Made by a program: the position numbers and the translations under genes. Positions 6,309 through 37,996 of a stretch of 64,000 nucleotides of DNA are shown piece by piece. How positions within the stretch are numbered: position 1 is the stretch's first letter; each line of letters begins with the position of its first letter. Source of the stretch: Daphnia pulex (Eukaryota > Arthropoda > Branchiopoda > Diplostraca > Daphniidae); NCBI RefSeq assembly GCF_021134715.1, contig NC_060022.1, forward strand, positions 1,431,001 to 1,495,000, in the 5' to 3' direction. The notes beneath the pieces were generated by a model that saw only the letters and a list, made by a program, of their open reading frames with translations, was not told where the DNA came from and made no database searches.

Positions 6309-7955
6309 TTATTTCGCAAGAACTTCAAATTTACTGAAACTATCCCCCTCCCCCATAAACTTACCGTGTCTAGGGGCTAAATTTATCACTTGTTGTTGTT
6401 TTACAGTTACAAACGAGGTTACAGACGAAGGATTGTTTATCGGAAATTTTGGAATATCCGAGCTAATGACTTTAAAACAATCGATTAACTGCGGGATTGA
6501 CGCCAACTCATCAGGGCTGAGATTTTTGCTCAGGTTAGGTATTGTGTGGTATTGTTGTTGATTTGGTGGTTGGCGTTTCCGCCGAATTTCTGGCTGATGC
6601 CTTCGTGGACGAAAGAGGCGTTTTCTGTTTATTTTTTCCTTATTCCGTTTCAGCTTCGGTTTGCGCTGATGCCTCTCATCAGATGCCGATACATCAAGCC
6701 AGTTTTCTTGCGTGGCTTTAAGAAATTCGATGAAACGCGTGCTTTTGCGATAGGCTGCGTAGTGAAGCGGAGTTAAACATAGTCCGTCAATGGAATGAAT
6801 ATCTGCTCCTTTTGAAATGAAGAGTACCCCGACTTCAAGCGCATCGTATGCAGCTGCCACATGCAACGGCGAACGGATATTTTTAACTTGGTTTCGCGAG
6901 ATGCCTTCAGCGTCGGCTTCTAATAAACGTTCAGCCACATTAACAGCATTTAATGCAGCAGCGTACTCGAGAGGCGTTAGGCCATTTCTTTCTTTAATAT
7001 CTACTTTGGCTTCTTTGGCAAGGAGCATCGTTGTTATGTTTTCATACTTGTGCCAAGCAGCCAAGTGTAAAGGTGTAAGTCCCGTTTCAAATTCCTGTTG
7101 ATTGACAACTTCGATGGCGCAATCCATTTCCAATAATAGTTTCGCAACATCTTCGGCCATGTTGAATAGTGCGCTGTAAAGCACTGTACGGCCACGGTTA
7201 TCAATGACATTGGGGTTGGCTCCTTTTTTGATCAACAGATCCACTATGAGTAGACGGTTGGGACTGAGAGTGTGTGTTGCTGCCGCCAAATGGAGCGCAG
7301 TTTCACCGTTACAGTTTGTTTGATTGGTATCTGCACCAGCATTCAAAATTACTTCCACCAATTCCGGCAAATTTTTTGCCACTGCAAGATGCAAGGCACG
7401 ACCAATGATAATATTATCAGCATTTTCTGGGAAAGCAACATTTGGATTCCCGTGATAACTGAGTAGCAGTTTCACCATTTCAACTGAGTTCATGTCCACT
7501 GCAATGTGAAGTGGACTCTTGCCGGAAACGTCTTTTACATTAATATCGGCTCCACTTTGCAAAAGAAAATGGGCTCTTGTTAGCCAATTATTCTTTACTG
7601 CGAAGTGAAGCGCCTTGTTTTTTCTATACAATGAGATGATTTGAGGAGACTTGTTGTTTGCAGCGAAGCGCGCAGCGGAGGAAATTGGTGTTAAATGATA
7701 GTTGTCGGCAATGGCAAGTGTAGCATTTTTCTTCCAGAGCTGCGCGAACTTCAAAATAACTGCTTCAATTTCCATTTTAAATGCATTGAAAGTTGATTCG
7801 TAAGAGTCATCAGATTGATGAGCAACGACCGAGACGGGCAAGGGACGAGATGTTCTTGTAGATAAATTGTCGATGTGCTTCATAATATAATTACTGGTCT
7901 CTTGATCCATTTTGGTTATTAATATCCTTTTTGTGCACTTTTTAAGGGAATGCAT
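6309..7955 (-). CDS. intronless ankyrin-repeat protein (548 aa)
   Basis: A single open frame of 548 codons. Residues about 100-430 hold around nine ankyrin repeats, visible as GKSPLHIAVDMNSVEMVKLL, GETALHLAA, GLTPLHLAA, GLTPLEYAA, SPLHVAA and LTPLHYAA. Ankyrin repeats are protein- or ligand-binding scaffolds. After the repeats, residues about 440-480 are extremely basic (KPKLKRNKEKINRKR and RRHQPEIRRKR), a probable bipartite nuclear signal or RNA-binding patch. The tail has no known domain. The first ATG may be an extension, since MDQETS at codon 16 is an alternative start. It starts only 205 bases downstream of the inferred end of a pseudokinase-KEN gene on the same strand, and a TATA-like tattatatag sits near 8117-8125. 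No catalytic domain is present, so its role is unknown. Confidence 0.85.
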   Translation of the reverse strand: MHSLKKCTKRILITKMDQETSNYIMKHIDNLSTRTSRPLPVSVVAHQSDDSYESTFNAFKMEIEAVILKFAQLWKKNATLAIADNYHLTPISSAARFAANNKSPQIISLYRKNKALHFAVKNNWLTRAHFLLQSGADINVKDVSGKSPLHIAVDMNSVEMVKLLLSYHGNPNVAFPENADNIIIGRALHLAVAKNLPELVEVILNAGADTNQTNCNGETALHLAAATHTLSPNRLLIVDLLIKKGANPNVIDNRGRTVLYSALFNMAEDVAKLLLEMDCAIEVVNQQEFETGLTPLHLAAWHKYENITTMLLAKEAKVDIKERNGLTPLEYAAALNAVNVAERLLEADAEGISRNQVKNIRSPLHVAAAYDALEVGVLFISKGADIHSIDGLCLTPLHYAAYRKSTRFIEFLKATQENWLDVSASDERHQRKPKLKRNKEKINRKRLFRPRRHQPEIRRKRQPPNQQQYHTIPNLSKNLSPDELASIPQLIDCFKVISSDIPKFPINNPSSVTSFVTVKQQQVINLAPRHGKFMGEGDSFSKFEVLAK

Positions 7956-8159
7956 TTCTGATTTTCCGAATTCCGAATCTGAATAAAAAAAGATTCGGCT
8001 ATTGCTTAATATTGCTAAGACTTTGACGTGTTAAAAAAAAATGGCACTTTTAAAAAATAAGTCGAGAGCACAAGGCATTGTCTGTTCTTAACTTACTCTC
8101 CTCTACCCCTACTCTCTATATAATAGGCAGCCCTTATCTCTTCATTGAAGAGTAAAGTA

Positions 8160-10474
8160 TCATTTGAAATAGTTGAAGACTTCAACTATTTACTACAAAT
8201 CAAGGAAAAAACTAAAAAGGTACTTACTTTGTGGTGGACTCCTATCATCGTTTTTGATGTCAATAATTGTTTCATCATCTATGGGCTAAAAAAAAAGATA
8301 CAATATCAGGACAACTATGTCTTTTCTTTTTTCAATTATTCAACCTTTCATTCTTTTAATTAATGAGGTATAAACTATAATAATGGATTGCAGCACTTAC
8401 CTCATCATATGCAGGGAAATCATAATTCGGGTGATAAAAGGAACTGAGATCCAAATCTTCGTCAGAAGAAACCTCTTTGAATTTTTGTAATCTGAGCCAA
8501 GTCTGCAGAACTAATTTAGGAAATCGCTTCTTCGTCCATTCCGCAACAAATGAATTGTGCTCTTCCGCAGTCAAATTGCGCTATAAAGGTAGCAATATCC
8601 GAAAGTAGGTTTTGTTATCGCGCACAAGATAAATAATATAGCTTAAATAAAATTGGTAAAATAAATTTACCATTTGCAATGAAAAAGTTTGCAGAGCTAC
8701 TCTATTTGTTATCAAATTTTGTTGATCAGGATTCAGTGTTGATATTTTGTCGAAATTTGGATGATGCACGTAGTAATCACGAGCCGCAAGAAGAAAAGCT
8801 GTGGTCATTTCCAGCGACCAAAGGAACGGGTGTTTCAGGATTGATGCTGCTGATGGAAGAACTGATTCTTTCATGGCTCGGATGAGGTGGATTCGGGATT
8901 GTGATATTTCTTGCGGGGATTCACTCAACAAATGAGAAAATATTTGACCAAGCTCCCGAATGTCATTTTTCATGTTAGCTGTGGTCAGGTCTGGAGAAGA
9001 TTTTTCTATTTATTTTAAAATGAACAAAAGACAAAAGTCAGAGCTACTTTCAAAAACTGTTTTACCCATATAAAATAAACCCTACCGGGACTTAACGCAA
9101 GTGTCGCAACTTTTGCAACGATGGTCGATTCCTTTTCAAAAATTACGATTTGGCTTAAAGATAGGTTCCCGTGTGTGAGCTTGTTGGTATGATAATGCAT
9201 AAGTCCTTTCGTGATTTGACGGAGAATGTCAGTTATAGTTTCACAGTCCAATTGTTTTCTATCTCTTCTTTCAAGCCATGTCTCCAGTGTTTCATTGAAT
9301 GGCTCGAAAGCCATGCAACTGTAGACATAAAACAATAAAACACATAAAATTACTTCGCTGTTGAGTGGAAACATAAAATAATATAAAAAATGTGCAGATT
9401 TACATTTCTGAAGTGTTCTCAACAAGATAGAAGCATTGCAGGCAGTTCGGATGACTTAAATAACGCAAACGTTCCCATTTAGTCGTTATTGTGTCATCAC
9501 AATCTTTTTGAAATTGAATCACATGGACGTGTTGCAATCCGAGACGACCATGACGTCTCTTGATTTTCGTAACCGATTCGACTTTTCCAAATCTCCCATT
9601 CGCTATCAAAAGGTCGTTGAAAATTTCTGGCTGCGACTCATTCTCGATTTCTTGCTCTATTTCGTTGCTTTCAGTATTTTCAGAAATGTATACAGAGGGA
9701 AATAGATTCGGAAACATTTGACACAAATCTGTTGGGTTCGCTTTTTTTTCCTACGTTAAAAATAAAACAATTAATTTTTCAGTTGATAAAATCATTTTAA
9801 TCAAAATTTGCTGTAGCTCAGGCAGCACTCACCTTGATTTCTTTCAAAACCGCAGCAACATTTGTAACCTTTACTGACGTTTTCTTCTGACCTCTGTTGA
9901 CTCCAATTGATTTGTCTGACAAGAGAATGGTACCTTTCCATTTATTATATTGATCACTCTTCTCGTCGATATTTTCGGCCACATTCCTCAGGTACTCTTC
10001 TATTTTTTTACCATGCCAAAGGAATGGGTGCTTAAGCAATTCGGATGAAGTGGGCCTTTTTGTGCAATCGTGACTGATCATTTTGGCTATGAGCGTTTGA
10101 AGTTGTTGGTCTCGACATCCAGCCAAATGATACAAATTGTTTTCGATAAACAAGGCGCGTTGGCCAGATTTCCCGAACGGATGTTGTCCACCGGTGATGA
10201 CGTAATAAAAGTAGCATCCCAAGGAAAATACATCTCCTTCTTTGGTTGGTTTTAAATCGGTCTTCGTCTCTTCAGCAGGCCGCCATTCGCTCAACGATTC
10301 GTTTGAAATATCCAATTTTCGCGCTGAATCAAGGATTTCGGCGAGGGACGAAATGTGTTTCCCATGAATCTCTCCTCGGGAGTGGATTTCTGCCAATTGT
10401 TCTGTAATCTGTCGCAGAATTTCATTGTGTTCGACGCTTTTCCCGGGACAACTTTTCCGGAAAGTGCAATCCAT
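8160..10474 (-). CDS. tandem double-pseudokinase protein with C-terminal KEN-like domain (IRE1/RNase L-like)
   Basis: Seven exons join in phase: 10474-9833, 9750-9404, 9318-9086, 9005-8671, 8580-8401, 8285-8228, 8185-8160 (606 aa from the first ATG). Unit 1 (residues 1-214) is a kinase C-lobe of IRE1 type (DVFSLGCYFYYVITGG, HPFG, KHPFLW) with the catalytic HRD changed to HGK and no N-lobe. Unit 2 has a glycine-loop-like NGRFGKV, an HRD changed to HGN, no DFG, a second KHPFLW, then a short KEN-like segment beginning RNL and containing RFPKLVLQTW, the RNase fold signature seen in IRE1 and RNase L. Both kinases should be catalytically dead. Reading upstream from 10474 meets an in-frame stop, and a foldback element lies just beyond, so the gene is probably 5' truncated. 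The last two small exons are less certain. Confidence 0.7.
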
Positions 10475-10594
10475 GAGAAATTGGAGATATGCTACGCAAT
10501 AGGTTTCGATTTACCTAGCTATTCGCCTAGGCTATAATCGCCCATCAAAGAGAGAAATATATTATATACAGTAAGATATTAGACCGATATTAGA

Positions 10595-10865
10595 GTCCAG
10601 CAACCGCTAGCTGTGGGCGCCAAATGGGACCATGCACATGCATAGGTTTCTAGCCATCATTTATCCAGTTACATCAGAGTCATCAAATCGGCGGTAAGCG
10701 AGCAACTGAATGTTCCCGGATAATTCATTGCGAGCCGTTATATGAATATAACGGCTTTGCTTGTACGCCACCAGTTTGGACTCCGATGTTACTGGATAAA
10801 TGATGGCTGGAAACCTATGCATGTGCAGGGCCTCATTTGGCGCCCACAGCTAGCGGTTGCTGGAC
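10595..10865. repeat. foldback (inverted-repeat) element, ~87-bp arms
   Basis: Left arm 10595-10681 and right arm 10779-10865 are near-perfect reverse complements, beginning gtccagcaaccgctagctgt and ending agctagcggttgctggac. The inner loop also contains the small palindrome ccgttatatgaatataacgg. There is no ORF. This is the form of a non-autonomous foldback transposon or MITE, though I found no clean target-site duplication. It sits immediately 5' of the truncated double-kinase gene. Confidence 0.85.
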
Positions 10866-11230
10866 CCAATAATTTCATATTTGTAGCTTATCGGTTATCA
10901 CGAATATTTACGCATTGTCACGTATAACTTCACCGCTTTAGATAAGAAACCGCCCTTGTCACGTGCTGTAGCCTTGTTTAGGCTTAGGCTACATACGTTG
11001 GCAATTTCTGATTGGACGGTGGGGAATAGTCGGGAATGTAATGCAACGTTTTTCAACCACATTTCATTACGTACTATAGACTTTAAAGAACACACATATG
11101 TTTGAATTTGATTATCATTTGAATTTGAAAAAAAAACTTACTTTAACGGCAATGTAGAGCGATGTAACAAACAGTAAAATCGAATGCACAGCTGCTGTTT
11201 CAGCTCAGTGTTTACATAACTTTTAATTTA

Positions 11231-11324
11231 TGTGTAGTTCAACAGTTCCTGAAATTCTCAAGTTGAGTGAAATTGGTTCCACTTCACATATGTGTAGTAC
11301 TTTCAGAAACTGTTGAACTACACA
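11231..11324. repeat. short inverted repeat, 24-bp arms
   Basis: Arms tgtgtagttcaacagttcct... (11231-11254) and ...actgttgaactacaca (11301-11324) are reverse complements apart from one mismatch, with about 46 bases between. It is probably a small MITE remnant or a hairpin. Confidence 0.65.
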
Positions 11325-11900
11325 CAATGATGGGACCTCTAAGAAAAAATTCAAACTGCTTTTTTAGTGCCCGAACGAATTCGTTTTCATACAAAAATTG
11401 CACGATAGCGTGAGTGACCATGATAGTGGTTGCAACGGACTTGGTGTAAGCCCGGGCAAAGTAGGCTGTCCAAAGCGCCGATAATAAAAAAAACTTGATA
11501 AATGACAAAAAACCCACATACTGTGTAGCCATAAACAAAGTTTCAACACAATTAGTTATTTTTTTTTTGGGGTGGAGACGGGTGATGTGTACTATAGATA
11601 ACCATGTATTGCAGACATATTGCACTCCTATATATTATGAAACTCAACTTTTCATGGGTTCCAAACAAGGAAATTGGAAAGAACAAACCTTTCCATTAAA
11701 AACAAATTAACCATATTGCACGCGCAGTACTTAATTGCAGTAGTACAGGAATTATTATATTTTATGGTGCCACTGTTATACAATGTTCGGACATAACTGT
11801 AAAAGAGAGCTAACATACATTTTAGTAAGACAAATTTCGTGTGAATAATTTCAAACAGAACTCAAGAGTCGATGCTGAAATACGCTGAACACACTATTGA
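11325..11900. other. intergenic between the two pseudokinase-KEN genes
   Basis: A 113-codon open frame on the minus strand (11284-11625) overlaps the inverted repeat and has no family resemblance or splice support. I treat it as chance. The 3' end of the 11901-13649 gene must lie here. Confidence 0.4.
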
Positions 11901-13649
11901 TTAATGATTTACAAGGTCTTTCAAATTGTTCCAAGTTTCCAAGAGAAGTGTGGGGAAGTTACACATCCAGAACAAGCAGTATTTATCAGGGAAGATATTC
12001 ATTTCGTTGTCCGGTGGTGCTACAAACTTGATTGCCTTTAGTTCTGCAATGGCATCTTGTTTGAAAGTAGATCTGTGCTCATTCCAGTGTGAGCTCTGCA
12101 AAGGAAAAGAACGTGCATGTCAATAGAAATGGATGGGAAAAAATTGAATCAAAATCAGTAGTATCTATTGTTATCACATGTATAGTTGTTATTCTGTTAT
12201 AAAAAAAAGGAAAAATATATTCGAACCTTATTGCGTATCTGATACAGAAGAGTTCTGAAATCCTGAATATGCAAAGCTTTTTTTTTGTTGAATTTCGGAT
12301 CAGCCTCATGCAAATACTCTACGATGTTAGGATAAAATATTTTTAGATCTATAAGAGTAGTTTCCAGAGAATCCAATAGGGCATCTGATGGTACTCCCGA
12401 CTCTTTTAAATAGTTGGAGGATCTTTCTATAAAATTTAGAATTTCTCGAACTTTCCAGAAAAACGGATGCTTTTTCAATGTGAAAGAAGAAGTTGTATAA
12501 TAAACAGTCTCTCCTTTGACAAGTTCACCTAAGATGCAGTTGATCCAGTCTTTGGCTAAAGAATTGATCCAAGAGCGTTGTTTACATGTCATTTCATTTT
12601 CACAAGCAGCGTCAGGATTTTCTAATAAGCCTGCGCAAAAACAAGGCTGTTCCAATCCTCTGACGTCATTTCTCCTACTTTCAATATTTCCTATCAAAGT
12701 AATGTAAGTGTCTTCATTTTTATTTTCGGGCCAGTCAGGATGTTCTTCTTCATCTTGTCTTTTCTCGAAAACTTGAAATAAGTGATAACCAGCTGATTGG
12801 ATGAAATATATCAAGAAGACAAGAGAGGACATATCTCTCTTAATTCGGTATTGCTGTGTGTCGACCTCTTGGTCTTGGTGGTTGGGCGTAAACCGTGTTA
12901 TGCTCCAAAAACTTGAATAGAATTTATCCAAGTTATTGAATGCATTGATTTTGCGAGGTACTACTAGCTTTATTGTTGCTGTTCGGCCATCAAGGAGAGT
13001 TTTCTTGACGAAAATATTTCGAGGGTGAAGTCTTCCATCGTAATATATGTTATTTTGATGCAACCAAGTTATGGAATCGACTAGCTGGATACACAAATCT
13101 TGTAGGAGAGTCCACTGAAAGTCGTTCTGAATCGCTTCCGAACGAATAAATTTATCCAAGTTTTCGTCGTACATTTCAAGACATAATTCCCTATAATACA
13201 TACCAATATGCGAGTCTGTGATTTTTTGTCCGGGTTAAATTAAACCAATAAATTTAAATGCTCCGCCCACGGACCTACCTGTAACACATACTTGGCATCT
13301 GTTCGAAAAAGTATCCGTGGCAGTTGGTTTCGTTCAACAGCATCTCTTCTATAATTTGCTGTTTTTCGTCCTCGCTAAAATTATTCGCGCTCTCCAATTG
13401 ATCAATTTCAGACTGAACCGTTTCCGGCATCGAATAAGCGATCGTCATACGTTGGAATCTGTCATCATGACGGAGATAGGTGTTTAATCCGGTAAAACGG
13501 ATATCCTGCAAGACAATTTTAAAACATTTGTGCGCTTATACAATTTCATGACACCAGAGCAATATCAATAATTTAAAATGGGATAGTTGTGTTCTTACTC
13601 CAGAGACAATTCTCGGTCGCTCTTCGTTCTCGTTATTAAATCTCGACAT
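11901..13649 (-). CDS. pseudokinase with KEN ribonuclease-like domain (IRE1/RNase L-like), 478 aa
   Basis: Four exons join in phase: 13649-13599, 13505-13279, 13190-12227, 12095-11901. The N-terminus MSRFNNENEERPRIVSG has no signal peptide, membrane segment or luminal domain, unlike IRE1. The kinase-like domain keeps the fold landmarks (LCLEMYDENLDKF, ITWLHQNNIYYD, KKHPFFW), but the HRD aspartate is replaced and the DFG position reads LVVP. It should not phosphorylate. The KEN domain reads IRNK-SSHW across the last intron and then NFPTLLLETW. The Arg, Asn and His used for RNA cleavage in IRE1 and RNase L appear kept at their usual spacing. The third donor (aag|gttcga) is weak. A dead kinase with a possibly live RNase is the arrangement of vertebrate RNase L. 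Confidence 0.75.
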
Positions 13650-14467: not shown

Positions 14468-15409
14468 TCAAAGAGTGGTCTTGGGGCGAGTCTCGACATA
14501 TTTCTTGATCTGTGGAATATTGGCAACGTGCTCAACCAATTTCTTTAGATGGGGAGAATTGTCGATGACGGAATCGCCGAAACGCTCAGTCATCGGAGAG
14601 AAGAACGAGTAGTAAGCCAGGTCCGCCCACGTGATCTGTAGAAACAGATAGCGATGAATCACACACCATCCGTCATTATGTATATGAATACACCACAGGC
14701 TACTGGTGAATATCAAAGTTAAGTTTAAAATACTAACCGATTTGCCGACCAAGAAACCGGTGCCGTTCTTTATCAGTTGTTGTTCCAGTTTTTCCAAGTG
14801 TGGGTTCACCGTCTCTTTGAGAAACTAATTGATTTAGAAAGAGAATTTATTATGTTAGAATAGGAAATACACTCTTATAGAATGTCATGTTATCAAACCT
14901 TTTGCAATATTTCCTTTTGTTTCTCTTTGTCCGTTTCATAGATGATTGGTCGGGTTCCTGTCAAAATTGTATGCTGTTAGTTAGCACGCTACCGACATTG
15001 AGAAGATTTAACTGTAATTCCAATTAACTCTGCTTACCTGAAATCAAATCATAGATGCAATCGACGTACATATCAGCCTGGCTTTGTTCCCACTCATTTT
15101 GGCCTGCAAGTCCGTGTTGCCGTGCAAGGTATCTGGCAATAGCGTTCGACTGAGCCAACGGCTTGCCGTCCACTTCCAAAACAGGAACTTGACCGAAGGG
15201 TGTGCCTGGTGTATGACGAACACTCGGATGAACAGCAAATTCATGTTTATGTGATTTGTTAACATTTTTTTCTTACCGGCTTTGTATTTGGGCCATTCTT
15301 CGCGCTCAAAACGGAAATCTTCGAAAGCGACTTCCTGGTGATGGAGGACCAATCGAGCAAGCTCACCACGCCCACGCAGATTGAAGTAAATTAACTTGTA
15401 GTGAACCAT
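14468..15409 (-). CDS. sigma-class glutathione S-transferase (204 aa)
   Basis: Five exons join in phase: 15409-15277, 15205-15038, 14957-14899, 14824-14738, 14635-14468. The 204-residue length is normal for the class. The thioredoxin-like N-domain starts MVHYKLIYFNLRGRGE with the catalytic Tyr8, then has the glutathione-binding FGQVPVLEVDGKPLAQSNAI (cis-Pro and the Gln-Ser pair) and YLARQ. The all-helical C-domain ends with ITWADLAYYSFF and PQIKKYVETRP, both standard sigma-GST signatures. Sigma GSTs conjugate glutathione to lipid peroxidation products, and some isomerise prostaglandin H2. The protein is cytosolic. No lesion is visible, so it should be functional. Confidence 0.95.
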
Positions 15410-15732
15410 TTTCTTATGAATAAATTGTTAAGGTCTAACCGAAGTAGAACAACTGTACTGTTCAGAAACGAGAGTTGACTGGACCCCCACTAGGTTTATA
15501 TGTAACGTATTTTTACCGACTTTTTTTGTTGGTGTACAATGACTTGCATCTTACCCTATTTTTATCTATGTAAAGATGACTTATCACTCAAACGGTATAT
15601 GTGACTTTAGACTTTACCTTGCGTGTCTGTAGATGAAATCGGATTTATTTTCTTTTAAAGTACACACTCATTCGAAAGATCTGGAAAGCGACAAAAATAA
15701 AAAATAATAATTTGTCAGATTGGTATGCATTT

Positions 15733-26900: not shown

Positions 26901-29823
26901 AATGGATGGACGACGGTGTCAGACAGCTGGTCTGGTTCACCTCATCACCCGAAAACTTGTTCTTGTTGGCAGCCTCTTTTTGTTGTTGTTTCTTTTTCCT
27001 AACATGTTCCTACTAACTTTCTTTTTTTCGGACGTTGTGTTTCTTTTATCGCCCCCGCGTCGCCAATTGGTTCCATTACAGAAATGCGTGACGGCGTTGG
27101 ATCAGACGTGGCACCCGGATCACTTTTTCTGCACCCAATGCGGCTGCCAGTTTGGCGAGGATGGATTCCAGGAGAAGGATGGCAAGCCATACTGCAAGGA
27201 GGACTACCTGGCCATGTTCGCCCTCAAGTGCAAAGGCTGTTCCACGGCCATCACCGAGGGCTACATCTCGGCTCTCAACGGCCAGTGGCATCCCAATTGT
27301 TTCGTCTGCAGGGTAAGTTTTTCCTTATTGACGTCAGATATGTTGTCCCCTGGAAGGTAGGTTATTCTTCTAGACAATCCTATTAGTAACGTGTGTCCGT
27401 TTCGCTGTTGTTGTTGTTGTTGTTGACATTCTTATATATCTCTTGACCGAGAAGGATTGTCGCGTTTCGCTCAACGGCGGATCTTTTTACACGGTCGACT
27501 CGCGCCCAGTTTGCGGCAAGTGTATGGGCGTCGGTTCCGATGCCGAAGACGACGACGACAGCCAATGAAGTGACCCCCGTGACCCCAAAACAAAAAAACA
27601 AAACAAAAACAAACCAAAATGTGTTTGAAAATTTTCAAGGAAGAAGAAAAACACAAACCCAAAAAAACACACGGCGCTTCTTATCTCACTTCTCCTTTCG
27701 CACACTTTTCTCTCTCTCTCTCTCGCTCCTCTTGAAGTAGTTTTGGCCACTCCCACCAGAAAAAACAGTCCCGAGTTTTTATTTTACAAAATAAGAAACC
27801 TGACAAACCAAAAAAATGATGATGATGTTCTAGTCCTGAAAAATAACAACACACCCACCGCGCGACATGCCCAAGTGCCTCCTCTTATTTAAAACAAATT
27901 TATTATTGGCTCATTTTTTGGCTGTTTCTTCTGACTTTTTTTCTTCTTTCTATCCCCCTTTCGCTCTCTATTCTCTCTCTCCATTTTGTGTGTTGTGTCT
28001 TGTTATGTATGTTGGCGATGATGAATCTTTTTCGCACAAAATGACAATGAAAGAAAACAAGTTAAACCAAAAACCAAAAATACCTGAAAAAAGAGTTCCA
28101 CTCGAACGAGCAAATCATACTACTACTCTACTGCTGCTACTTTTTCCAGTTTGGTACATATAGTCAGAGAATAAAACAAAAAAGAAACAAAAGATTAACG
28201 ACTCTTCGGTGGCGGGGAGGCTCATGCACTATTGGATGGATGGTATAGTTGGACTGGTTTGGCGGGGTAGTAGTAGCAGTACAGTTCGTTTAGTTCAGTC
28301 ACATTTCTTTTCTATATACAACACACACACCCGTTGGGTGGGTTTATTTTAACGATGCGGATGAGTTCACATCGTTACGCAAAATGAGCGCTGCAAAGTA
28401 AAAGGCAAGTTCGTCATTCTCGTGAACTCCCCATGGTTCGGTTCACGCAATGGGTTTCTTCTTCTTTTTGTGTGTGTAGAGCCGGGTTGAATAAATCAGT
28501 CAAGTCGTGGGAGGGCGGAGACAAGCTCCGAGCCGGGATGAAGTTGCTTACCTTTGAGCTTCTTCTTCTTTCAAAATTAGAATTCGTTATTTTTGTATTT
28601 TGGCTTCTTTTTTGCGCGCTAGTCTTGTCCATTTGATTGTTGTCATCGCTTTTTAAAGCTTTTGGACCCGGGGGTTTGAATAAAGCGCTTTGCACAGCTG
28701 TGCCCTCCTCCCTCGGTCGATCTTTACCAGCAGAAAAAAAATTTTTTGAAGCCAGCTTTCGAGGAACTGTAAACGACCGGATGACGCATGGCGTGTCATA
28801 AGAGATTTCTCCGGTGCCGCTCTAGCGAAGTAGAAGAAGAGGGATACTATCTATAGGCTGGCGAAAGCGTATAAATAAAGACATCCTTTCTCTCGACTCT
28901 CCTTTTTTCTATTCTCAGAACATAAAAGACACGTACGAAAAAAAAAAGTTATATTTTTTTTTCGGGTTTTTGAAAATTCGCCGCAGAATGGCGCGGACTT
29001 TTCTTCTTTTTATTTTCGCCTATTTTTGGGCTCTTTGGAGAGGCTTTACTAACTACGACCAGTAGTTGGCTGTCAAACAATCACTTAGTCTCGGGCTCTT
29101 GACCCTCTTTTCTGCTAGCTCCTCCTTCGCCATTTCCCTTGTAGTCGTTATTAACATTTTATTTTTAAAAGCGACTCAATGAAAGGCATTTCTTTTCCAA
29201 CAACAAACGGCGTACGGGTGACGTTAAGGGTGTCTAATTAAAAACAACAATTACCCCCCCCCCCTCACTTAGTAATTAAGCAAATATGGATCTTTTGCTA
29301 ATGCGATTATTAAATTGTTATTTTTTTTTTTTTTTCCCCACCATTCCAACTTGCAGGATTGCAACATGCTGTTCCAGGGCGGATCGTTCTTCGTTCACGA
29401 GGGTATGCCCTACTGTGAGATCCATTACCACGCCAAGAGAGGTTCGCTCTGCGCCGGATGCCATAAGCCGATTACCGGTAACGATTTTCTTCTTCTTCTT
29501 TATTTTCTCTTTAATAGACATCCCCCTCCCCCCCCCATAACACTTGCGTGAAAAAACAACAACCGTTTAACCTCATTTTCTCTATTCACCCATTATACTG
29601 TAACTGCTGTATACGATGTGAATGAATTTGTTTGTTATTGTTCTTTTGTTATCACGCGAAAAACAAAACAAAATCAGGTCGGTGCATCACGGCCATGTTC
29701 AAGAAGTTTCACCCGGAACACTTTGTCTGCTCCTATTGCCTGAAACAGTTGAAGAAGGGCACGTTCAAAGAGCAAGGAGACAAGCCGTACTGCCACGGAT
29801 GTTTCGAGCGCCTATTCGGATGA
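17903..29823 (+). CDS. Pax: paxillin, full-length isoform (461 aa, LD1-LD5 and four LIM domains)
   Basis: Ten exons join in phase: 17903-17930, 21256-21401, 23681-23913, 24517-24604, 26050-26190, 26320-26397, 26491-26664, 27082-27312, 29357-29477, 29678-29823. LD motifs appear in order: [12 protein letters not shown] (LD1), [12 protein letters not shown] (LD2), [13 protein letters not shown] (LD3-like), [12 protein letters not shown] (LD4) and [13 protein letters not shown] (LD5). Four tandem LIM zinc-binding domains follow (first [11 protein letters not shown]...WHPEHFVC) and the protein ends in the family-typical RLFG. Paxillin is the cytoplasmic scaffold of integrin adhesions, where LD motifs bind FAK, vinculin and GIT proteins and the LIM domains target adhesions. 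The ATG at 17903 (MEVPAMDDL) is the first in frame; M6 is an alternative. Confidence 0.95.
18394..18490 (+). CDS. Pax: alternative first coding exon of paxillin
   Basis: An open exon begins ATG ([20 protein letters not shown]) and ends PAPG + T at a strong donor (GTAAGTTC), 32 codons and one base. Its phase (1) equals that of the canonical first exon, so it can splice to 21256. The isoform would read ...PAPGY-ALLADLQ, replacing the Leu-Asp that starts LD1. This implies a second promoter in intron 1. Codon quality and the donor match support a real exon; no transcript evidence is available to me. Confidence 0.65.
18730..18737. promoter_or_regulatory. CRE-like palindrome TGACGTCA (first of two)
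   Basis: A perfect 8-bp cAMP-response-element palindrome lies about 240 bp after the alternative paxillin exon. A second identical copy is at 18959-18966. Two perfect copies within 230 bp are uncommon by chance and could be bound by CREB/ATF-type bZIP factors, but function is inferred only from the motif. Confidence 0.3.
27455..27568 (+). CDS. Pax: alternative last exon of paxillin (LIM3 end, acidic tail, no LIM4)
   Basis: After exon 27082-27312 (ends ...HPNCFVCR) either this exon or 29357 can follow in the same phase. This exon reads [20 protein letters not shown], then GKC, and stops after an acidic tail ([10 protein letters not shown]). It supplies the remaining zinc ligands of LIM3 but removes LIM4, giving a 410-aa isoform. 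The exon at 29357 begins with the same sort of sequence ([12 protein letters not shown]), so the two look like a duplicated, mutually exclusive exon pair. A polyadenylation signal follows at 28170. Confidence 0.8.
   Translation, partial: DCRVSLNGGSFYTVDSRPVCGKCMGVGSDAEDDDDSQ
28170..28175 (+). terminator. polyadenylation signal AATAAA, short paxillin isoform
   Basis: AATAAA about 600 bases after the stop of the alternative last exon and 1.2 kb before the next paxillin exon. It suits termination of the isoform lacking LIM4. Confidence 0.5.
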
Positions 29824-36520: not shown

Positions 36521-37996
36521 ATGGAGAAAGATGGCCGCCGCCATGTTGTATGGTGTCTGAATGGGAAAAACTACGCGTCTTGGAAATTTGGAATGAAGCT
36601 GGCGTTACAAAGTGTTGAGCTTTGGGAAGTCGTGAACGGGACTCAACGGCAACCTGCTGAAGTAAGTTTATTGATGATTTATTGTTTTCTTTATGTGTGT
36701 GATCCGTGCCTGACAACAACGCGATATGAGATGCCTATCTGTGGCGTGGTACCAACTATTAAATTGACAAACTTAGATCCCGGCGTGAGTGCTTAATCTC
36801 TGCCACTTGATTTTGTTTTTTGTGTGTTTGTGTTTGCTGGACATTTCTCTTTTTTGTGTTTCTTTCTCAATCTGTTTGGTCACTCTGGCTAAATTCCATC
36901 ATATGATGGTGGACAAGTGTGTGCTAGAGTTGCAAGCATCTAGGAGACAGCTGAGTGTTTTTCCACATCGAGATGATGTGAGGGAGATTCCACATTGAGA
37001 TAATGTGAGAGGTATTCCACATCGAGATGATGTGAGGGAGATTCCACATTGAGATAATGTGAGAGGTATTCCACATCGAGATGATGTGAGGGAGATTCCA
37101 CATTGAGATAATGTGAGGCTGCCATGGATATCACAAACCTAACCATCTTCTCGTTTTGTTACCACAATCAGAGACGCAATGCTGACCAGGTGATTGAAAA
37201 TGCAGCTGATATAACCAACTGGAACAAGAGAAATACCACGGCAATGCAGAACATATTTGGCGCCATCAAAGAAGACCAATCAAGGATCCTGATGTCTTGT
37301 AGCACAGCCCAAGAGATGTGGATGAAATTGGAGACTGAGTATGAAGAAGATGCCGCAGACAATGCACCTCTATTGTGGACAAAGTTCTATGGATGCACAT
37401 TTCGACCAAGCCAAAGTGTATCAAGCTTCCTGACTGAGTTGGAACAGATAGCATTCCGTCTGAAGAGCCTCAACATAGCTATTGATGATAATCAAATAAT
37501 GGCAAAGATACTCATGTCGCTTCCTCCAGAGTTCCGTGTTTTTGCCTTTGCATGGGACAGCACGCCTGTTGCAGAGAAAACTCTCAAGAAACTGACTACT
37601 CGCCTTATAGCATTGGACAAGAGCCTGCGCAACGACGAAGAAGCAAAATCGACATCTGATACTGCCTATCTCAGTAAGCCGAACAGAGATGAATCACAGC
37701 ACAAAGAGCAAGCACTTCCTGCCCAGTACGGTCAGAACAAAGGAAAAAGCCACCCTTCCAGTCAACATGCTGGTATACCGAGAACATGCTGGGAGTGCAA
37801 CTCCACTACGCATGTTAGAGCTCAATGCCGTCAATACAAACGCCGGCGTGAGAGAGAAGGAGAAGAAGCGGACAGAAAAAGGAAGCGTTACGATCGACAT
37901 GACAGAAGAGATGATAAACTATGTAAGCTCCCAGGAGCAACTGGCCGATGCACTCACGAAACCCCTGGCTGCTCCACGCTTCAAGTATCTCCGTGA
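36521..37996 (+). pseudogene. gag: Copia Gag (interrupted), fused out of frame to an RNase H remnant
   Basis: The Gag start is at 36521-36661 (47 codons, containing NGKNYASWKFGMKLAL) and ends at a good donor, GTAAGT. The frame resumes in phase at 37172 after a cag acceptor and continues with the UBN2-type Gag core (AQEMWMKLETEYEE, ILMSLPPEF) and a CCHC knuckle (CWECNSTTHVRAQC). A basic stretch then meets the deletion junction near 37905. Beyond it the Gag frame continues as nonsense, while the RNase H end (ADALTKPL) lies in another frame that stops at 38028-38030. The 510-bp interval 36662-37171 behaves like an intron or an insertion. Confidence 0.8.
36961..37117 (+). repeat. 27-bp minisatellite of six units, each a potential hairpin
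   Basis: Two 27-bp variants alternate three times, one containing ccacatcgagatgatgtgag and the other ccacattgagataatgtgag. Each unit can pair as CACATC-GAGAT-GATGTG or CACATT-GAGAT-AATGTG. The C-to-T and G-to-A differences preserve pairing. It lies inside the intron-like interval of the Copia gag. Confidence 0.85.

Follow-up and report, generated by a model that had tools for sequence, protein, structure and literature searches.

We describe here a gene cluster of Daphnia pulex that we read as a branch derived from IRE1, in which one gene may encode a soluble KEN-type RNase and another, predicted to be spliced to an ankyrin exon, a non-catalytic protein; taken as a whole, this reading has in our view an even chance of being right. 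The cluster occupies positions 6309-13649 of a 64,000-nucleotide window (C6:1431001-1495000; contig NC_060022.1) and holds three genes, all on the minus strand, namely gene A, gene B and an ankyrin open reading frame (ORF). The longest open stretches in it are 573, 345 and 230 codons, compared with a maximum of 219 in 1000 base shuffles, which bears out the three same-strand genes noted in an earlier, sequence-only reading of the window. The introns as modelled in genes A and B have GT-AG borders, splice sites and start codons being judged by the consensus rules; the codon-usage score is about zero for most exons. The features of the cluster, in window coordinates, are:

11901..13649, minus strand: gene A, 478 residues, decayed pseudokinase and KEN domain (GT-AG exon model and Pfam KEN)
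13649-13599, 13505-13279, 13190-12227 and 12095-11901 (including the stop), minus strand: gene A exons (exon model)
11913..12439, minus strand: gene A KEN match, residues 344-475 (Pfam residues converted via the exon model)
8212..10474, minus strand: gene B taken by itself, 603 residues (exon model; Pfam kinase 1.4e-19; unit 2 matched best in PDB by IRE1, 1.5e-10)
10474-9833, 9750-9404, 9318-9086, 9005-8671, 8580-8401 and 8285-8212, minus strand: gene B exons (exon model)
9833..10474, minus strand: gene B unit 1, IRE1-type pseudokinase C-lobe followed by the start of a KEN remnant
8401..9750, minus strand: gene B unit 2, pseudokinase lacking DFG and with HGN in place of HRD, and shortened KEN remnant
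7979..8227, minus strand: proposed 249-nt phase 1 intron, in frame, between gene B exon 6 (8285-8228) and the ankyrin exon (7978-6309)
6309..7910, minus strand: ankyrin ORF, 533 residues from its own ATG, at least eight repeats and a basic tail (ORF list, Pfam)

The KEN domain of gene A is recognised by Pfam (PF06479), with an E-value of 1.4e-7 and 32.1 bits for the whole protein and 35.5 bits for the KEN piece alone, both above the cut-off of 23.3; the last exon alone, as scored in an exon-by-exon genome search, reaches 18.4 bits and falls below it. The domain carries R-N-K-S-S-H and FPTLLLETW, and its RNKSSH aligns to the RNKKHH of human IRE1 with R, N and H kept at the human spacing. The catalytic R, a polar residue after it and the H, whose roles are set out in the accessible part of a KEN survey (PMC3710099), are all present in gene A. 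Among the 17 rows of PDB sequences matching gene A at E<=10, 13 are IRE1 (weak matches, E 0.026-0.09, over the KEN part), and RNase L is absent from the 17. The kinase motifs HRD and DFG, which hold catalytic residues, are lost, the sequence there reading YDGRLHPRN, and Pfam finds no ankyrin repeats in the protein. No luminal sensor or membrane segment was seen by eye in the models of genes A and B, unmodelled upstream exons being possible. For gene A there is little room for a luminal domain, because its ATG lies only 819 bases from the nearest upstream ORF of GST-like appearance (by eye; 14468-15427, minus strand). A soluble pseudokinase-KEN protein of this kind, proposed by the sequence-only reading, is thus recovered in the gene A model, and a second one is found elsewhere in the genome. 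In our view gene A is a rapidly evolving IRE1 relative outside the membrane, which may have kept the ability to cleave RNA.

A search of the genome (133.19 Mb, 13 contigs) with the Pfam KEN profile, exon by exon, returned five rows at E<=10 in three places: the genome's own IRE1 (two rows; C1:1957 kb), the last exon of gene A (one row) and a gene on C4 (two rows):

C4:1982-1985 kb (cited as C4:1983 kb; 7985-9652 of L007), minus strand: second soluble kinase-KEN gene, KEN Pfam 66.1 bits

As we read them, all three interrupt the catalytic loop at the same place and in phase 0. In the own IRE1 the intron lies after RNK and before KNHY (by eye), in gene A the intron 12226-12096 splits the KEN directly after RNK (RNK|SSHW), and in the C4 gene the junction reads RDK|AVQY. 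The C4 gene resembles those of the cluster in having no luminal domain in its model, a pseudokinase (HGN), a Pfam KEN and this intron, and differs in that its KEN lacks the catalytic N and H and that the window's ankyrin protein has no match in the 20 kb around it. Its gene model leaves two readings, HPFG and DPNAV.

Gene B has two pseudokinase units in tandem, each followed by the remnant of a KEN domain. HRD and DFG are gone from both, HRD being replaced by HGK in unit 1 and HGN in unit 2, so the loss of catalytic kinase residues reported in the sequence-only reading extends to gene A and to each unit of gene B. The same reading credited both genes with KEN RNase motifs and proposed a PF06479 search as a check; gene A passes it and retains R-N-H, whereas gene B gives no match in the whole protein (E 1) or in either tail (E 10). 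A local KEN profile, built from four domains (human IRE1, own IRE1, the C4 gene and gene A), does score gene B, with 18.7 bits for unit 2 (shuffle maximum 6.1, n=500) and 12.4 bits for unit 1 (shuffle maximum 8.9, n=500), the signal coming mostly from the first and last helices. Against PDB, unit 2 matches IRE1 at 1.5e-10 and RNase L at 3.8e-4, with other kinases between them (best 60 of 298 matches). An intron of phase 0 lies between LQM and RNL in the gene B KEN, at the place of the IRE1 'RNK|KNH' junction. If the introns are homologous, the RN...H of gene B falls behind the catalytic place, which itself reads SLQM; at the intron there is no catalytic loop, and the catalytic R, polar residue and H are missing. 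The intron position therefore suggests that RN...H is a run of chance letters rather than a catalytic motif, and that the gene B KEN is most likely dead. The N-lobe of unit 1 was not found, and an inverted repeat upstream of gene B (10595-10865; 87-nt arms, 93% complementary, 97 nt between them) occupies the place where it would be expected. We considered this repeat as a mobile element and rejected the idea, a genome search that skipped very common words having found its own place only.

The ankyrin ORF is intronless over its 533 residues, the in-frame sequence before its ATG contains no stop as far as 8030, and PF00023 matches it in eight stretches above the cut-off. The tail is basic, with 19 K/R against 6 D/E in 61 residues. 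Its best PDB matches are generic and designed ankyrins, and RNase L is absent from the 59 PDB sequences that match at E<=1e-20; a fold model made without an alignment was useless (mean predicted local distance difference test, pLDDT, 36.2). The sequence-only reading had described this intronless ORF and its tail correctly, but that it makes a separate protein is doubtful, since a splice to gene B can be predicted. The donor, A|GTAAGTA, lies so close to the end of gene B that the stop codon ends 16 nt past the splice point. Of 1178 comparable frames in the window, each 55-95 nt long and following an AG, 19 contain GTAAGT ahead of the stop. The acceptor, TCTTTTTTTATTCAG (ending in CAG), is at 7978, which together with 8192 is the most pyrimidine-rich of the 27 AG sites listed (14/18 each), and of these two only 7978 joins the ankyrin frame. 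Once joined, the frame meets no stop before that of the ankyrin ORF, and the 66 nt added by the fusion lack stops only in the needed one of the three sense frames. No AATAAA or ATTAAA occurs on the sense strand from the gene B stop to the ankyrin start, nor in the 109 bases behind the ankyrin stop, which hold only AATACA and AATATA. On these predicted splice sites we lean slightly towards gene B and the ankyrin exon forming one putative fused gene.

The relationship to IRE1 is carried by the kinase-KEN order, the intron inside the catalytic loop, the R-N-H of gene A, the KEN alignment and the best sequence matches in PDB, the kinase of gene A being weak when taken alone. The cluster departs from IRE1 in the loss of active kinase residues from gene A and both gene B units, in the dead KEN of gene B, in the ankyrin exon behind it and in the models' lack of a sensor and membrane segment. 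RNase L is the well-known animal cytosolic KEN enzyme with ankyrins. What the cluster shares with it is a pseudokinase and KEN without a membrane part, and ankyrins adjacent or in the same protein, as far as the accessible part of PMC4061530 describes RNase L. It differs in order (ankyrins, pseudokinase, KEN in RNase L), since gene A has no ankyrins and the fused gene B would carry them C-terminally; in the placing of the active KEN (gene A) and the ankyrins (gene B) in separate genes; and in sequence, both gene A and gene B unit 2 standing nearer to IRE1. An exon-by-exon genome search for OAS1_C (PF10421) gave one match, at E 0.448 and 16.1 bits, below the cut-off of 19.9. A true RNase L gene, split or rearranged, would account for the same three domain kinds lying within 7.3 kb, yet the closer match to IRE1, the generic ankyrins, the lack of an OAS1_C match above cut-off and the reversed order make it highly improbable; the sequence-only reading had itself argued from gene order against a simple split, and this holds. 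Its wider proposal of an RNase L-like system in separated parts is weak on the same evidence, the more so as the ankyrin exon is likelier the end of gene B. We therefore favour a local IRE1-derived family over a split RNase L. Where the cluster resembles RNase L, it does so in layout rather than by descent, and even that layout depends on the predicted splice.

Comparable departures from the IRE1 plan are known. Arabidopsis IRE1C lacks the sensor domain. Together with a sensor-less form of IRE1B it provides a case of IRE1 acting without an unfolded-protein sensor, according to the accessible part of PMC6788458, in a plant and with no ankyrins. Lineage-specific extra KEN genes are described for Oikopleura and monocots, where they are proposed as defence RNases and, unlike here, lack an IRE1-type kinase; the accessible part of the same survey lists KEN combined with kinase, ankyrin or CCCH, and the expansion that it reports in Daphnia concerns Swt1-type HEPN rather than KEN (PMC3710099). 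A literature search, mostly of papers outside subscription, found no description of a KEN or ankyrin-KEN gene of Daphnia, and on the KEN or RNase L genes of this genus it listed nothing besides PMC3710099.

Several points weigh against our reading. The gene models were drawn by hand from the genomic DNA of one species. In the gene A KEN a Leu replaces the Tyr of IRE1 'RTY', which is an important residue, and the intron after RNK has a weak donor (GTTCGA). The gene A kinase lies below the Pfam cut-off (E 0.071; 12.9 bits against 31.7). An AlphaFold model of gene A exon 3 (321 residues, 22 alignment rows) reached a mean pLDDT of 68.4 and a predicted template modelling score of 0.67, and a fold search with it yielded 980 matches at E 10, kinases in general, the best at E 3.5e-3 and none at E<=0.001. 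Template modelling (TM) scores to the query were 0.21-0.38 in the best 50 of the 980, mostly ordinary kinases; the alignments of the two IRE1 chains among these 50 were longer than all others (278 and 280 columns; TM 0.38 and 0.35). Fold support for this exon is weak because the alignment behind the model consists of kinase rows. On the side of the fusion, the 66 added nucleotides have a codon score of -0.07 in the needed frame against 0.06 and 0.07 in the others. The ankyrin ATG has a good start context and is preceded by a TATA-like stretch and a second GTAAGT (~8096), so that a separate ankyrin gene is possible.

Such a gene could stand beside gene B by chance, with gene A a soluble IRE1-derived RNase that has no ankyrin partner. 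Besides its own start and upstream signals, this explanation is favoured by the generic kind of the repeats, by the C4 KEN gene having no ankyrin match nearby and by the abundance of ankyrin genes: a hand count of listed rows, with 81 of 295 and 150 of 974 candidates scored, gives at least about 72 separate places in the genome. At this density, about 0.5% of places or more should have an ankyrin gene within 5 kb, a figure that is no test because the pair was picked after being seen. Set against it are the strong donor, with the gene B stop ending 16 nt beyond it, the good in-frame acceptor and the lack of AATAAA or ATTAAA between the two genes (a lack shared by the 109 bases past the ankyrin stop), and we regard chance neighbourhood as a serious possibility that nonetheless falls somewhat short of probable.

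It is also conceivable that all three soluble KEN proteins are dead and instead bind RNA or act on IRE1 as decoys or dominant partners. The C4 protein lacks N and H, gene B has no loop, and gene A has lost the Tyr and acquired a 17-residue insertion; what makes us think this unlikely is that R, N and H of gene A are exactly spaced despite very large divergence elsewhere. That divergence, with branches of 4.83 changes per column for gene A and 3.46 for gene B unit 2 in a tree of kinase C-lobes, would equally suit decaying duplicates without function, as would the unit 1 N-lobe that was not found and the palindrome at 10595-10865 just upstream. The open exons of 321 (gene A), 214 (gene B) and 533 (ankyrin) codons, with GT-AG borders in A and B, speak against decay, which we consider distinctly improbable.

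If our preferred reading of an IRE1-derived family is right, a branch of IRE1 would have evolved locally and fast, with the luminal sensor and membrane segment lost. IRE1 and RNase L work as oligomers, according to the accessible part of PMC4061530. Gene A would most likely be cytosolic and cleave RNA upon pairing of its KEN domains, as IRE1 and RNase L do, and its kinase part, which would hardly phosphorylate, would serve as a dimer platform, oligomerisation most likely taking place without phosphorylation. Gene B, most likely spliced in frame to the ankyrin exon, would yield a non-catalytic protein with C-terminal ankyrins that probably acts as a scaffold or binding partner. The dimerisation, any link between genes A and B and any role in stress or antiviral RNA decay are putative. 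The fullest version, a cytosolic two-protein RNA-decay switch derived from IRE1, in which the B-ankyrin protein, its parts running opposite to those of RNase L, would sense a ligand through its ankyrins and pair with the active KEN of gene A to turn it on or off, we hold to be very doubtful.

Relatives of gene B are widespread. Its protein gave 23 matches among 57 candidates in the genome, six being gene B itself and 17 lying elsewhere. The pairing of pseudokinases in gene B is consistent with such a broad local expansion. One of the 17 is the own IRE1 and one appears PAK-like by eye. In seven (L015, L017, L020, L021, L022, L024 and L025) a caspase-like frame follows the kinase by eye:

C12:5063-5066 kb, C5:2740 and 2784 kb, C1:1678-1683 kb and C12:6921 kb: pseudokinase with caspase-like frame (by eye)

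The kinases at these loci have HRN for HRD, and most of the loci show SHG and QACQG, L021 having SHR for SHG and L024 being broken by stops. L015, the sole one checked with Pfam, matches Peptidase_C14 at 1.4e-28, and the kinase-caspase fusion at the seven loci is putative; a literature search found nothing on such a combination in Daphnia. In the C-lobe tree (19 rows) the five caspase-linked kinases used cluster at 97/96, with the C4 kinase as their neighbour (91/86, on a long branch) rather than grouped with IRE1; as a placement of gene A and gene B unit 2 the tree failed, long branches meeting. Four further relatives (L026, L029, L030 and L031) show double kinases or WD40-like stretches by eye. 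An ankyrin match near IRE1-like kinases at C12:5076 kb looked by eye like Notch and was dropped.

Elsewhere in the window, an inverted repeat at 11228-11327 (27-nt arms) sits between genes A and B. On the plus strand, 26902-27360 is a LIM-domain exon (PF00412, 6.6e-23), paxillin-like by eye, and 37112-37996 a Copia-type gag reading frame (PF14223, 1.3e-25).

If the reading is true, a crustacean KEN has been freed from the membrane of the endoplasmic reticulum (ER), and a dead KEN copy has perhaps been joined to ankyrins in an order opposite to that of RNase L; this would suggest more than one origin for such a design. The cluster would then offer an invertebrate candidate for RNA decay in viral and ER stress.

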